Positions 5,758 through 26,665 of a DNA stretch of 38,522 nt are shown in pieces. Source of the stretch: Gemmatimonadaceae bacterium (lineage in GTDB: Bacteria > Gemmatimonadota > Gemmatimonadetes > Gemmatimonadales > Gemmatimonadaceae); the NCBI GenBank assembly GCA_037721215.1, contig JBBJNV010000031.1, positions 1-38,522 of the forward strand, given 5' to 3'. Under the pieces are notes generated by a model. The model saw only the letters and a list, made by a program, of their open reading frames with translations, did no database searches and had not been told where the DNA came from. Each line of letters opens with the position of its first letter. The stretch's first letter is position 1. Position numbers and translations under genes: made by a program.

Positions 5758-6705
5758 CTAAATACCCGCGCTGGCCCCGCTCGGAACATGCGTCAGCCAG
5801 CCATAACGATCAGGCAATTTTCCTTCGGCGATTCCCATGTACTGTTCCTGTATCGCGAGCGTCAACGGCCCCGGCCTGCCTGTACCCACAGGAATACGGT
5901 CAACAGAGCGAATCGGCGTAATCTCGGCCGCCGTTCCGGTGAAGAACAATTCATCCGCGATGTAGAGCATCTCCCGCGGCATAACCTGCTCAATGACCTC
6001 GAGATCCATGTCCCGCGCGATACGTGATACCGAGTCGCGAGTGATGCCGTTCAGGATACCAGCCGACAACGGAGCCGTGATCAGCTTCCCGTCACGAACA
6101 AGAAACAGGTTCTCGCCACTTCCCTCTGCGACAAGGCCAAGCGTATCGAGCATTATTCCTTCCGAATAATTGTCGAGGCGGGCCTCCATCTTGGACAACT
6201 GAGAGTTGAGATAGTTCCCGCCGGCTTTTGCCATGGTGGGGAACGTGTCAGGTGCAGGCCGGCGCCAGCTCGACACGCAAACATCGACCCCCTCGGACAG
6301 CGCGTCGTTGCCGAGGTATGGGCCCCATGTCCACGGAATTATGAATACCTCGAGCGGTGTGTCATTCGGAAGCACTCCCATCTGCTCGCCGGTTCGTAGC
6401 GCCACAGGCCGAAGGTAGCAGTGCGGCAGATCATTTTCCGAAACCGTATCGATGCACGCCTGCACCAGCTGGTCCTGCGAGTACTCGAGAGGCATGCGAT
6501 AAATGCGGCAGGAATCTGCGAATCGCCGCATGTGATCTCCGATGCGGAAAATCGCCGGCCCGGACGGTGTCGCGTAGCACCGCACGCCCTCGAACACACT
6601 CGAACCGTAGTGCACGACGTGACTCATCACATGAATGGTCGCGTCCTCCCAGTCCACGAGCTGTCCGTCGCGCCAGATCCTGTGATGATTGTCAGCCCGG
6701 GCCAT
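5758..6705 (-). CDS. ilvE: Branched-chain amino acid aminotransferase
   Basis: This is a class IV PLP-dependent aminotransferase of 315 residues, the normal length for IlvE. It performs the last step of Val, Leu and Ile synthesis, moving an amino group from glutamate to the branched 2-oxo acid. Conserved features include HVVHYGSSVFEGVR near the N-terminus, KAGGNYLNSQLSKMEA, which contains the Schiff-base lysine, and GSGENLFLV, which binds the cofactor phosphate. The ATG has a Shine-Dalgarno-like AGGGA just upstream. The 109 bases between this start and the upstream amidohydrolase gene could carry its own promoter; a TTGACA sequence is present there on the minus strand (6731-6736), but no good -10 box follows at the right distance. 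Confidence 0.95.
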   Translation of the reverse strand: MARADNHHRIWRDGQLVDWEDATIHVMSHVVHYGSSVFEGVRCYATPSGPAIFRIGDHMRRFADSCRIYRMPLEYSQDQLVQACIDTVSENDLPHCYLRPVALRTGEQMGVLPNDTPLEVFIIPWTWGPYLGNDALSEGVDVCVSSWRRPAPDTFPTMAKAGGNYLNSQLSKMEARLDNYSEGIMLDTLGLVAEGSGENLFLVRDGKLITAPLSAGILNGITRDSVSRIARDMDLEVIEQVMPREMLYIADELFFTGTAAEITPIRSVDRIPVGTGRPGPLTLAIQEQYMGIAEGKLPDRYGWLTHVPSGASAGI

Positions 6706-6814
6706 CAGTCGTCCCTGTTCGTGTTGAAGTTGTCAAGGAAATTACGAGAGCGTGTGGAACCCGCAACTTATCGCCAGGTCTTTGCCGGCGACGACTGCTG
6801 ACTTTCCGCGCCGT

Positions 6815-8233
6815 TCATTGCGGCACCGACGTCAGTGGCATTGCGGGACCGACGTCAGTGGCACCCACATCGATAGAAGTGGCTGAACGCCAGGTGCCTG
6901 TGCGCTCCCATGCCGCCAACGCGTTGGCGGATGCAACCACGCGTTGCACAAGAGCGGGATCGGGTAGCACCAGCCCGCCATCGACGATGCGCGGTTCTCC
7001 CCTTACCGCAACAAACTGCGCAGGGGTGCCGGCAACTGCGAAAAGAATTGCGGCAACGATGTCGCCGACTGGTGTTGCGCGCGCCGCGGAGAGCGGGAAC
7101 GCGGCGAGATCTGCTTCCTTCCCCACTTCCAGCGAACCCACCTTGTCGTCGATGCCCAGAGCGCGCGCGCCGCCGATCGTTGCAAGCTCCAGTGCCTGCT
7201 GCGCCGTGAGCGCGCGTTCAGTGCGCTTCAACGCGCGTTGGAACAGAATCGCGAGCCGTGCTTCTTCGAGGATATCCATGCGGTTGTTGCTTGCCACCGA
7301 ATCGGACCCCAACCCAACGGTCACACCCTTGGCAAGAAGATCGGCTACCGGTGCAATACCATGCCCGAACTTCGCGTTCGACGCCGGACAGTGTGCCACC
7401 GAGCAGCCATGGCGGCGAATGGTTTCGATATCTTCGGAGTCGAGCTGCACGCAGTGGATCAGGAGTGTCGTAATCGAGAGGCACCCCGTCGCCTCGAGCA
7501 ATGCCACCGGCGTTCGCGCGCGAGGGAGCACATCGAGGCCGCGCAGTCTCCATTCATCCGCAAACGGTCCGGCAGCATCGCAGACGATCTGCTGCTCCGA
7601 CACGCTCTCGGCGATGTGTAATCCCATCGGCAGCCCTGCTTCCCGCGCAAGGTCTGCGGAGGCTGCGTAAAGAGAATCGGAGATTGTGTACGGCGCGTGC
7701 GGCGAGACACCGAGCCGGACGAGACCCGTCTGCAGTGGCAACAGCCGTGCAATCGCGGCACGCAGGACATTCATGGAATCTTCGCATTGTTCGGGCGCGG
7801 AACCGAAGGTTTCCTGATACATGATGCCGCGCACACCCATTTCGATCATTGCCTGCATTACCAGACCGGTCGAACAGGTGTCGGCATAGGTCGTGATTCC
7901 GGCGTGCAGGCCTTCGACTATTCCGAATCTCGCCGAGTCGAGCAGCATCTCGTCCGTGAGGGCTTCCTTGCGGCTGCTTCGAAGCTTGTCGATCCAGTCA
8001 TTGAAGCAGAGATCCTCCAGGAAACCGCGCATCGATGTGAGCTCGAGATGCGTATGCGCGTTGATGATTCCGGGCATGAGAACGCAGTCACCCAGGTCAT
8101 GATCGTCGCCCGGCGGTGCAGCGCTGGTGGAACCCACGTACGCGATGTTGCCATCCGGCGCGACAGAGACACATCCATTCTCGATCGGCGGCCGGGTTAC
8201 CGGAACAACCCAGCGCGCGCGGTACCGTTTCAA
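6815..8233 (-). CDS. Amidohydrolase/deaminase, possibly aminodeoxyfutalosine or adenosyl-nucleoside deaminase
   Basis: This is a metal-dependent hydrolase of the ATZ/TRZ-like branch of the amidohydrolase superfamily, 472 residues long. The metal ligands are visible in order: HTH (NAHTHLELTSMRG), His in HIAES, His in the IHCVQL region and the Asp of LGSDSVASNN. The motif VSPHAPYTIS is typical of deaminases acting on modified adenosines, such as MtaD (methylthioadenosine/S-adenosylhomocysteine) and MqnX (aminodeoxyfutalosine, menaquinone synthesis). The sequence alone does not settle the substrate. The start overlaps the PBP1A stop by 4 bases (ATGA), so the genes are coupled. The last codons lie in a 23-bp duplication that changes the C-terminal tail. 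Confidence 0.88.
   Translation of the reverse strand: MKRYRARWVVPVTRPPIENGCVSVAPDGNIAYVGSTSAAPPGDDHDLGDCVLMPGIINAHTHLELTSMRGFLEDLCFNDWIDKLRSSRKEALTDEMLLDSARFGIVEGLHAGITTYADTCSTGLVMQAMIEMGVRGIMYQETFGSAPEQCEDSMNVLRAAIARLLPLQTGLVRLGVSPHAPYTISDSLYAASADLAREAGLPMGLHIAESVSEQQIVCDAAGPFADEWRLRGLDVLPRARTPVALLEATGCLSITTLLIHCVQLDSEDIETIRRHGCSVAHCPASNAKFGHGIAPVADLLAKGVTVGLGSDSVASNNRMDILEEARLAILFQRALKRTERALTAQQALELATIGGARALGIDDKVGSLEVGKEADLAAFPLSAARATPVGDIVAAILFAVAGTPAQFVAVRGEPRIVDGGLVLPDPALVQRVVASANALAAWERTGTWRSATSIDVGATDVGPAMPLTSVPQ
6817..6862. repeat. Tandem 23-bp duplication at the deaminase 3' end
   Basis: Two adjacent 23-bp copies (6817-6839 and 6840-6862) differ at one base. Because 23 is not a multiple of 3, the second copy read by the deaminase gene is in a different frame from the first. 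The duplication therefore supplies a new tail (PLTSVPQ) and stop codon. It looks like a recent replication-slippage event at the gene end. Confidence 0.85.
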
Positions 8234-25158: not shown

Positions 25159-25593
25159 GTGACCGGTAACCAGCCACCGTACGCCCTTGCATCAGCCCGC
25201 TTCCGGTTCCGCGCGCTGGCGCTGCAGGCAGGACGTACCCCTCTCGGTGGAAACCGCGAGGTGATCATGGCGTGCTTCGTCGCGTGCAGAACGGGGGCCG
25301 GTCTCTGCTCCGATGCCGCTTTGGCGCCGGCGGTGCTCAAGTCACGTGCGTTGGCAGCAAGGGCCTGGCTTGCATCAATGTCGGTTCCCGGGCAGATCCG
25401 CCTCGCCACCGGTGCGACCATCGACGCATCGGGATCCGCAAACGGTGTTGCCGTCGCGCAATGCCTTGCCCAGCTGCTGATGCAAGCCGCGCCACAACTC
25501 GACGAGGCCGCATTTGCCGAGATGCGGGAGCTGGTGGATGAGCTGGCTCACGATTCGAGCGAGTTTCAGGTTGAGATGATCACGGCGCGGTGA
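25159..25593 (+). CDS. Hypothetical protein
   Basis: This is a possible 144-residue protein divergent from the PorX-like gene, with 49 bases between the starts. The N-terminal half is basic and Ala-rich. The second half (about residues 70-140) looks like a folded domain with helices, including PGQIRLATGATIDASGS and EAAFAEMRELVDELA. Codon composition fits the neighbouring genes. The start is a GTG with a purine-rich GCGGGC just before it; a later ATG at 25267 is possible. I do not recognise a family. The alternative is that it is non-coding, though the absence of a better frame on either strand favours coding. Confidence 0.5.
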   Translation: MTGNQPPYALASARFRFRALALQAGRTPLGGNREVIMACFVACRTGAGLCSDAALAPAVLKSRALAARAWLASMSVPGQIRLATGATIDASGSANGVAVAQCLAQLLMQAAPQLDEAAFAEMRELVDELAHDSSEFQVEMITAR

Positions 25594-25612
25594 GACTTTG
25601 GGGTGCAGGGCG

Positions 25613-25879
25613 GTTACCACAGATGGCACAGATGGGCACAGATGACACAGATGAAGGGCGCAGCATCCGCACCGACGACGAACGTGCGCGTCCGTTGTCC
25701 AAAAATAAAAAAAGGGTTAACTGCAACTACAAACGCAGCCATTCGACGCCCGTGGCAGCCCCACCGTTGCAGTCACCACCGTTGCAGTCCCGCCGTTGCA
25801 GTCACCACCGTTGCAGTCCCGCCGTTGCAGTCCCCACCGCTGCAGTCATCTGTGCCCATCTGTGTCATCTGTGGTTAAC
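25613..25879. repeat. Foldback element with CACAGATG-type inverted arms
   Basis: The left arm starts at 25613 and repeats CACAGATG four times with one- or two-base variation; the right arm (25846-25879) is its reverse complement, with about 33 matched positions and few mismatches. Arms are therefore inverted around about 200 bases that hold a 14-15 bp tandem array. RNA from this region could form a long hairpin. Arms of this CACAGATG kind recur between genes in many environmental bacteria; that is from memory and not tested here. There is no transposase gene inside. It fills the gap between the hypothetical gene and yebC. Confidence 0.85.
25761..25847. repeat. Six tandem 14-15 bp units inside the foldback element
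   Basis: Six consecutive units of the type CCACCGTTGCAGTC, with lengths 15, 15, 14, 15, 14 and 14 bases, run from 25761 to 25847. Variation is limited to CCACC versus CGCC starts and the last base; the last unit has CGCTGC in place of CGTTGC. There are no spacers, so this is not a CRISPR array. The last unit runs directly into the right arm of the foldback. Confidence 0.9.
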
Positions 25880-25895
25880 GCCGTCCCCGCAGTCC

Positions 25896-25901
25896 TATAT
25901 T
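25896..25901 (+). promoter_or_regulatory. Candidate -10 box for yebC-ruvC-ruvA
   Basis: TATATT lies 27 bases before the yebC ATG, just outside the right arm of the foldback. No convincing -35 element sits at the normal distance; the GTTAAC end of the foldback arm is the nearest T-rich stretch, 16-18 bases upstream. A leader of about 20 bases with AGGAAAA before the ATG would follow. Confidence 0.35.
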
Positions 25902-25927
25902 ACTGACCACTCCGTCTCTCAGGAAAA

Positions 25928-26665
25928 ATGGCCGGTCACAGCAAGTGGAAGCAGATCAAGCATTACAAAGCAGCGACCGATGCTAAGCGCGGCGCTCATT
26001 TCACAAAACTGATCCGCGAAATCACGATGGCGGCGAAGCTGGGTGGGGGCGATCCAGCGGGCAATCCGCGCCTCCGGACTGCCATCGATATCGCGAAAGC
26101 CGCGTCGATGCCCAAGGAAAACATCGAGCGGGCGGTCAAGAAGGGGACGGGCGATCTCGAGGGCGTGGAATACAGCGAAATCACCTACGAAGGCTACGGC
26201 CCCGGCGGCGTGGCGATCCTCATTTTTTCACTTACCGATAATCCCAACCGTACTGTTGCGGAAGTGCGACACAAGCTGTCGCGAGCCGGCGGTAACCTCG
26301 GCGCAGCGAATTCGGTTTCGTGGATGTTCGAACGGAAGGGTTTGTTGTACATCGATGCCGCGAAGCACGGCGAGGATGCCGCGCTCGAGGCAGCACTCGA
26401 CTGCGGTGCCGAAGACTTCAGGGCTGAGGGCGACCAGTTCGAGGTAACGACTGACCCCAACAATCTTCACTCGGTGAAGAGCGCGCTCGCACAGCGGGGT
26501 TACGAGGTCACGGATGCAGAGGTTGCATCGGTGCCGAAGAATCTCGTGAAGGTGGAGGGAAAGGCCGCAGAGTCCCTCGTAAAGCTGCTTGAAGAGCTCG
26601 AAGATCTGGACGACGTGCAGAAAGTGGCCGCCAACTGCGACGTGGAGATGGAAGAGCCGCAGTGA
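25928..26665 (+). CDS. yebC: YebC/PmpR-family regulatory protein
   Basis: This is a 245-residue YebC/TACO1-family protein, full length, with the invariant start MAGHSKWKQIKHYKAATDAK. Further landmarks are FTKLIREITMAAKLGGGDP, NPRLRTAIDIAKAASMP, KENIERAVKKGTG and YEGYGPGGVAILI. The family has been linked both to transcriptional regulation and to helping ribosomes through difficult peptide stretches. AGGA lies 5 bases before the ATG. It is followed by ruvC and ruvA in the same direction, a common bacterial arrangement. Confidence 0.98.
   Translation: MAGHSKWKQIKHYKAATDAKRGAHFTKLIREITMAAKLGGGDPAGNPRLRTAIDIAKAASMPKENIERAVKKGTGDLEGVEYSEITYEGYGPGGVAILIFSLTDNPNRTVAEVRHKLSRAGGNLGAANSVSWMFERKGLLYIDAAKHGEDAALEAALDCGAEDFRAEGDQFEVTTDPNNLHSVKSALAQRGYEVTDAEVASVPKNLVKVEGKAAESLVKLLEELEDLDDVQKVAANCDVEMEEPQ

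Follow-up and report, generated by a model that had tools for sequence, protein, structure and literature searches.

The repeat element located before yebC in the window (the whole stretch of 38,522 nt that was analysed) is a lineage-specific insertion, because the corresponding site was empty in 17/17 readable relatives. On balance, the element is best regarded as a gene-less, non-autonomous, MITE-like foldback insertion of a class whose coding members enclose a GxxExxY gene of the PD-(D/E)XK type. The arms of the proposed class would be short words at 9–10-nt spacing, such as CACAGATG, CGCAAAGG, CACGGATT, CGCAGAGG and the like. The arms of the window element consist of such CRCNVA-type words at 8–11-nt spacing. 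No GxxExxY gene was found within the window element, therefore it is only a gene-less relative of the class.

Structure of the element

The element has 38-nt inverted arms (25609–25646 and 25845–25882), which are 92% complementary and separated by 198 nt. In the whole 38.5-kb window, five inverted pairs of at least 20 nt with arms up to 1500 nt apart were detected, the other four being 71–81% complementary. The left arm (plus strand) is composed of four CACAGATG words at 25618, 25627, 25637 and 25646 (spacing 9, 10 and 9), the last lying just beyond the paired part, and has an outer GGCGGTTAC extension. It matched the arm model R1 at 25613–25656 with an E-value of 2.4e-15. The right arm (minus strand) contains three inverted CACAGATG words at 25847, 25857 and 25866, followed by GGTTAACGCC, and matched the same model at 25845–25878 (E 1.0e-10). 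The original prediction had described inverted arms of repeated words and an inner 14–15 bp tandem array within 25613–25879. Both features were confirmed; the limits were a few bases short.

The array was located by Tandem Repeats Finder at 25750–25848 with a period of 15 (6.8 copies) or 29 (3.4 copies). It is made of about six 14/15-bp units ending in TTGCAGTC or CTGCAGTC, the minus-strand unit being GGACTGCAACGGYGG, and represents an expanded form of the GGAACTGCAACGG / GGAGCTGCAACGG block, of which the C3 and C32 copies have one each. In the C1 copy, a similar inner block has expanded in parallel. The left interior (25654–25749) has little likeness to other copies.

Weak outer complementarity, judged by eye, reaches about 25601 and 25893, and the whole self-pairing element, with a length of about 270–300 bases, was assigned to 25598–25896, its ends being fixed only to within about 10 nt. 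The folding of this segment resulted in −139.3 kcal/mol as RNA (z −9.1) and −68.2 as DNA (z −5.6), and in both cases 0/200 dinucleotide shuffles were as good. The arms could pair into a cruciform or a fork hairpin in DNA, or into a 31-bp stem in RNA.

The arm pairing starts 16 nt past the stop of the upstream ORF (25159–25593, plus strand, 144 aa), which gave no Pfam match at E 0.001 and no NCBIfam match at E 0.01. The downstream gene (25928–26665, plus strand), which we take to be yebC, encodes a protein matched in 19/19 genus genomes. Just outside the element (25896–25901, plus strand), TATATT was noted by eye as a candidate −10 motif, and similar motifs were seen by eye upstream of yebC in L082, L083 and L085; no sigma-70 site was found in the promoter scan. 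None of the ORFs across 25590–26012 resembles GxxExxY. The only PF13366 match in the source genome (G000) lies on C24, with another copy, so the window element is gene-less. A known RNA family was rejected, as no Rfam match up to E 5 was obtained in 25500–26000.

Insertion at the yebC site

In the 400 nt before yebC, neither arms nor an exact CACAGAT word were present in the 17 readable congeners, which bears out the claim of an insertion. In ten of them, an ORF of 139–151 aa, the size of the upstream gene, ends 2–90 nt before yebC; the gap in the source genome is 334 nt. With the other seven, where a different frame was chosen by the script, the gap was assessed by eye. In the source lineage, the element would have become inserted between yebC and the ORF upstream of it. 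The duplicated target bases suggested as a check by the original prediction were not seen: no direct repeat of at least 5 nt was detected between the flanks 25585–25612 and 25878–25905, where the element ends are uncertain by about 10 nt and the relatives have diverged. According to a passage of PMC10969869, the target-site duplications of MITEs wane with age.

The strong RNA fold and the intergenic position would also suit a functional element of the transcript, in which the 31-bp stem, lying between yebC and the gene upstream, is a signal for the processing, the stability or the termination of RNA. One minus-strand terminator-like stem was detected in the loop (25741–25718; 0.3 expected), and RNase III cuts transcripts of Correia elements, which are MITEs, and the stems of rRNA intervening sequences (IVSs), as stated in parts of PMC10969869 and PMC4990558, respectively. 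However, the element is missing at this site in all the readable congeners, the interiors and arm lengths vary between copies, and no plus-strand terminator-like site or Rfam match was found, which makes this explanation quite improbable. Processing of the stem in RNA may still accompany the favoured MITE-like insertion.

Copies in the source genome and the genus

The BLAST search of the source genome with the element gave 17 matches. An arm model of 46 positions, built from 25 arms of three genomes, was run on 19 genus genomes and resulted in 21 matches in the source genome, 35 in G012, 12 in G013, and one each in G015 and G006, with 0 matches in the other 14 of the 18 congeners. A sole copy lacking related sequences in relatives, the situation that was thought to speak against a mobile or functional role, was thus not encountered.

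The copies are largely inverted pairs located mostly between ORFs (simple ORF calling). Their interiors differ, and both interiors and arm lengths vary from copy to copy; the expectation of constant arms with varying interiors held among the other copies of the genome. The half-element consensus consists of TTTACC, four words and then a GGAAC..CAA.TG block, and this consensus of arm and inner block is common to separate loci. The identity between the compared copies (6 in the source genome, 8 in G012 and 4 in G013) was about 0.45–0.75 and lower where the lengths differ. Due to this low identity, no recent burst is visible and the family is old here. In copies of G012 and G013 (L023, L230, L231, L235), an outer AAGTGCG block is located ahead of the arm; its resemblance to what we take to be the Pasteurellaceae uptake-sequence core is probably by chance.

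CACAGAT arms in other phyla

A pattern of three words with the CACAGATK spacing was run on a collection of 84,980 species and was detected in at least 119 stretches, 80 of them among the matches listed. These matches include records named Chloroflexi, Bacteroidota, Verrucomicrobia, Planctomycetes, Gammaproteobacteria, Nitrospirae, Spirochaetes, Acidobacteria, an archaeon and others; many of the stretches listed are inverted pairs and others single arms. The element consensus gave only partial matches to 2 phage and 4 plasmid records, and a weak partial match was located on a Gemmatirosa plasmid. In L163 (1995–2417) and L169 (6301–7260), head-to-tail copies with a spacing of about 132–133 bp and one CACAGAT arm each were observed; these repeats are half-elements amplified in place.

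The palindromes and words could also have arisen locally, without any mobility, through slippage during replication and through switching of templates at the fork. The expansion of the inner array in the window and the parallel one in the C1 copy are consistent with such an origin, as are the tandem copies of about 132 bp in L163 and L368 and the low identity between copies. However, the same three-word arm with 9–10 spacing occurs in unrelated phyla and slippage would not yield the same word. The arm and inner-block consensus of separate loci and the 17/17 empty sites, where the 400 nt ahead of yebC lack even one exact word, also argue against formation in place, which is therefore considered very unlikely.

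A recurrent neighbour gene of the cross-phylum arms was rejected: among 128 ORFs near the arms of 119 loci, no family occurred more than twice (best 25 of 106 families; single transposases are possible), and only one of these ORFs was GxxExxY. The HMMs built from the genus detected one GxxExxY gene and one four-helix gene at the 80 listed loci. Most CACAGAT elements elsewhere, among the loci examined, have no GxxExxY or four-helix gene nearby. The count of CACAGAT words near the GxxExxY and four-helix genes of the genus suggested no link either, and the link between genes and arms emerged only once arms of any word were allowed.

Gene-bearing relatives

Downstream of guaA in the source genome (C24, 34600–35410; L237, 1614–2402), a GxxExxY gene which matches PF13366 and TIGR04256 is enclosed by a left arm of the CACAGATG type and a right arm that is degenerate. 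The arm score of this C24 element was 17. At the convergent guaA–PTS_EIIA intergenic site (L272–L283), foldbacks were found in 8/11 readable species, the source genome included, with CACAGATG arms in G013, CACAGAG in G015 and others in G005, G006, G010, G011 and G017; foldbacks other than the CACAGA types were judged by eye. A GxxExxY gene is present there in two species (source genome and G006) and a four-helix gene in G011, and G001, G003 and G012 have an empty site. The guaA intergenic site is a hot spot for such insertions, and the mixed foldbacks and genes found in it led to a direct test of arms in the gene flanks.

In this test, one 350-nt flank of a gene was aligned with the reverse complement of the other, and scores of at least 16 were counted as passed. 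The pooled results were 34/41 for four-helix genes, 26/36 for GxxExxY genes and 3/72 for neighbouring ORFs. In the genus, 17/20 four-helix rows, 7/13 GxxExxY rows and 0/37 neighbouring ORFs passed. With the fetched best matches from other phyla, the corresponding values were 17/21 for four-helix genes vs 2/16 controls and 19/23 for GxxExxY genes vs 1/19 controls. The high four-helix controls were L294, which coincides in position with the four-helix gene, and L308, beside an array. Each row stands for an ORF that overlaps the family match, in some cases on the opposite strand, and the L057 locus accounts for two rows; those with flanks shorter than 350 nt or ORFs longer than 300–400 aa were dropped. 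For the cross-phylum tests, 28 and 30 loci, at most one per genome, were fetched and 5 short loci were set aside in each.

Both genes are common, as GxxExxY genes were detected in 39 and four-helix genes in 30 of the 42 genomes of other groups, all chosen for holding CACAGATK arms. Their frequent position inside inverted word arrays suggests that they are parts of mobile elements and not stray host genes.

The two gene families differ in their arms. According to the lag test, the four-helix arms are tandem arrays of a 7–9-nt word (18/18 cross-phylum, 9/17 genus), and the word differs between elements; for GxxExxY arms, tandem arrays were determined in only 11/20 cross-phylum and 1/5 genus loci. 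Pairs of CRCNVA words were found in the GxxExxY arms of 13/20 cross-phylum and 4/5 genus loci, in 0/35 four-helix arms and in 11/600 random windows, the value of 13/20 being partly circular since the pattern was written after seeing the cross-phylum arms. The word tests keep the best row per locus with slightly other length limits, resulting in totals of 5, 17, 18 and 20. In L343, the GxxExxY gene is located between CACAGATTACACAGATT arms, and G005 and G006 have several GxxExxY genes yet only 0 and 1 CACAGATG arm matches, respectively.

On plasmids, inverted arms enclose 5/5 four-helix genes but only 2/8 GxxExxY genes, which is the main weakness of the GxxExxY half of the claim. The four-helix genes tested come from 5 of the 28 plasmid records detected and the GxxExxY genes from all 8 detected, with the gene limits in the unannotated L399 and L401 set by hand. 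Several plasmid GxxExxY genes have, by eye, direct word copies or an adjoining foldback. In L399, L400 and L404, word-like copies flank the gene in direct orientation (by eye), an arrangement missed by the inverted-arm test. In L405, a Sphingomonas plasmid, the GxxExxY gene (1477–1905) is separated from its neighbours fabD and fabG by 33 and 2 bases and, with a score of 12, did not pass the inverted-arm test, i.e. it is an arm-less copy in an apparent operon. Spread by phages was rejected, as the GxxExxY protein had no match at E 1e-6 in 50,697 phage records and the element consensus matched phage records only partially.

Gene loss in Chryseobacterium

The flanking gene of a Chryseobacterium site was present in 172/173 genomes; 30 loci were fetched and 21 were read around the site. 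The GxxExxY gene aligns in L368, L372, L373, L374, L379, L383, L387 and L389. In L370, the arms are kept and most of the GxxExxY gene is gone, with sister species holding the gene at the same site, and in L384, L388 and L393 a single CCACAGATT remains and little else. The series shows gene loss from an element, not movement. Gene-less copies of the yebC type would come from such gene loss together with the expansion of the inner block. In L368, the GxxExxY gene is located beside the arm pair and is not enclosed by it. Hairpins of another family, approximately GATGCTTCGACTCCGCTCAGCATGACA with its complement, were observed in L377, L390, L394, L396 and L397 at the site which elsewhere holds the CACAGATG/GxxExxY element. 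The search for insertion ends in IMG/VR contigs gave 15 stretches, and all the mutually alignable ones carry arms.

The GxxExxY protein

In 29 aligned GxxExxY sequences, columns of G, E, D, K, Q, Y, F and R were invariant and E78 nearly so. The C24 protein keeps D68, E78, K80, Q92 and Y96, and a nuclease motif, D...ExK...QxxxY, can be read from the conserved columns. The structure predicted for the source-genome protein (pLDDT 94.9) was closest to SSO0001, which we take to be a Cas4 nuclease (Foldseek E 7e-4; VIA-align Z 10.0, rmsd 4.3, 100 aligned). Lower matches were obtained with the R2 endonuclease and lambda-type exonuclease domains (Foldseek) and with Hjc (Z 7.1), and these lower-ranked scores may reflect only a common arrangement. 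The likeness of the predicted fold to nucleases is no proof of function. Solved relatives were not found by sequence up to E 1, and one of four proteins had weak PADLOC matches, which include a Cas4b model.

Comparison with known mobile elements

REP/REPIN sequences, which are associated with RAYT, are likewise dispersed intergenic hairpins. A RAYT/REP origin was rejected, since no Y1_Tnp match was found at E 0.001 in the element-rich G000, G012 and G013 (genomes 96–98% complete); Y1_Tnp is present in G005, G015 and G016. The foldback transposons of the Drosophila FB type have inverted arms of short direct subrepeats and a variable or gene-bearing loop, as seen here, but belong to a different domain of life.

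In comparison with MITEs (Correia, ERIC, RUP), the element is similarly short and gene-less, with inverted ends, an intergenic and patchy occurrence and a stable transcript fold, as described in part of PMC10969869. Unlike them, it has 38-nt arms of internally repeated words (4–30 bp in a typical MITE according to the same source), and its coding relatives carry a nuclease or a four-helix gene. Neither a parent transposase, looked for by the Y1_Tnp scan and among the ORFs near the arms, nor a target duplication was found.

In the case of an ordinary MITE, the arms would be terminal inverted repeats belonging to a DNA transposon, its transposase being now absent or unsampled, and the tie with GxxExxY would be incidental, both gathering in tolerant intergenic sites. 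Terminal inverted repeats, a gene-less length below 500 bp, an insertion relative to an empty site, the position mostly between ORFs and the patchy occurrence among species all agree with this explanation. At two sites, several unrelated foldbacks occur in related species, where genes and repeats could meet by chance. Nevertheless, an ordinary MITE is considered unlikely: none of the families among the 128 ORFs of the 119 loci recurred more than twice (best 25 of 106, single transposases being possible), a Y1 transposase was not matched in G000, G012 and G013, and the target duplication was not found. In addition, the arms are word arrays whose word varies between elements, and genes are often enclosed by them.

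The favoured MITE-like foldback insertion of a gene-encoding class also resembles the rRNA IVSs with an S23/four-helix ORF (PF05635). The likeness includes pairing inverted ends, a long stem around a small ORF and sporadic spread (part of PMC4990558), and ORF-less insertions are present beside ORF-bearing ones in rRNA genes (part of PMC11270868). In the passages available, the functionality, origin and mobility of IVSs are called unsettled (PMC4990558) and the S23 domain functionally uncharacterised (PMC11270868). However, the window element is not an rRNA IVS, since it is located between an ORF and yebC, i.e. intergenic and outside rRNA, and has no S23 ORF. Its arms are CACAGATG words as with GxxExxY genes, in contrast to the words of four-helix genes. 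Four-helix genes are also described inside cas loci beside Cas4 or Cas6 (part of PMC3936711).

The likeliest mechanism is that the element-encoded nuclease acts on the arms when they are paired, and does so in trans where a copy is gene-less, although as a complete account it is rather doubtful. The nuclease would act on the paired structure and not on one fixed sequence, in cis or in trans. We tentatively propose a phylum-spanning class of mobile elements set by structure, in which inverted arms of changing words surround one GxxExxY or S23/Avd-like four-helix gene. The rRNA IVSs and the free-standing S23 elements would also fall into this class. The hairpin would be recognised while the words drift, and gene-less copies of the yebC type would have been moved in trans. 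Such a class offers an origin for the CACAGAT-type hairpins which recur from Bacteroidota to an archaeon. In the open-access literature on the repeat words, GxxExxY, the family accessions and S23/IVS with repeats, no description of such a class was recognised.

In the Bacteroidaceae genome of L149, two identical CACAGAT arms in inverted orientation, at a distance of 2.7 kb, flank a small ORF (6455–6838). This ORF presumably encodes a DUF559-type endonuclease and is a possible third gene type of the class.
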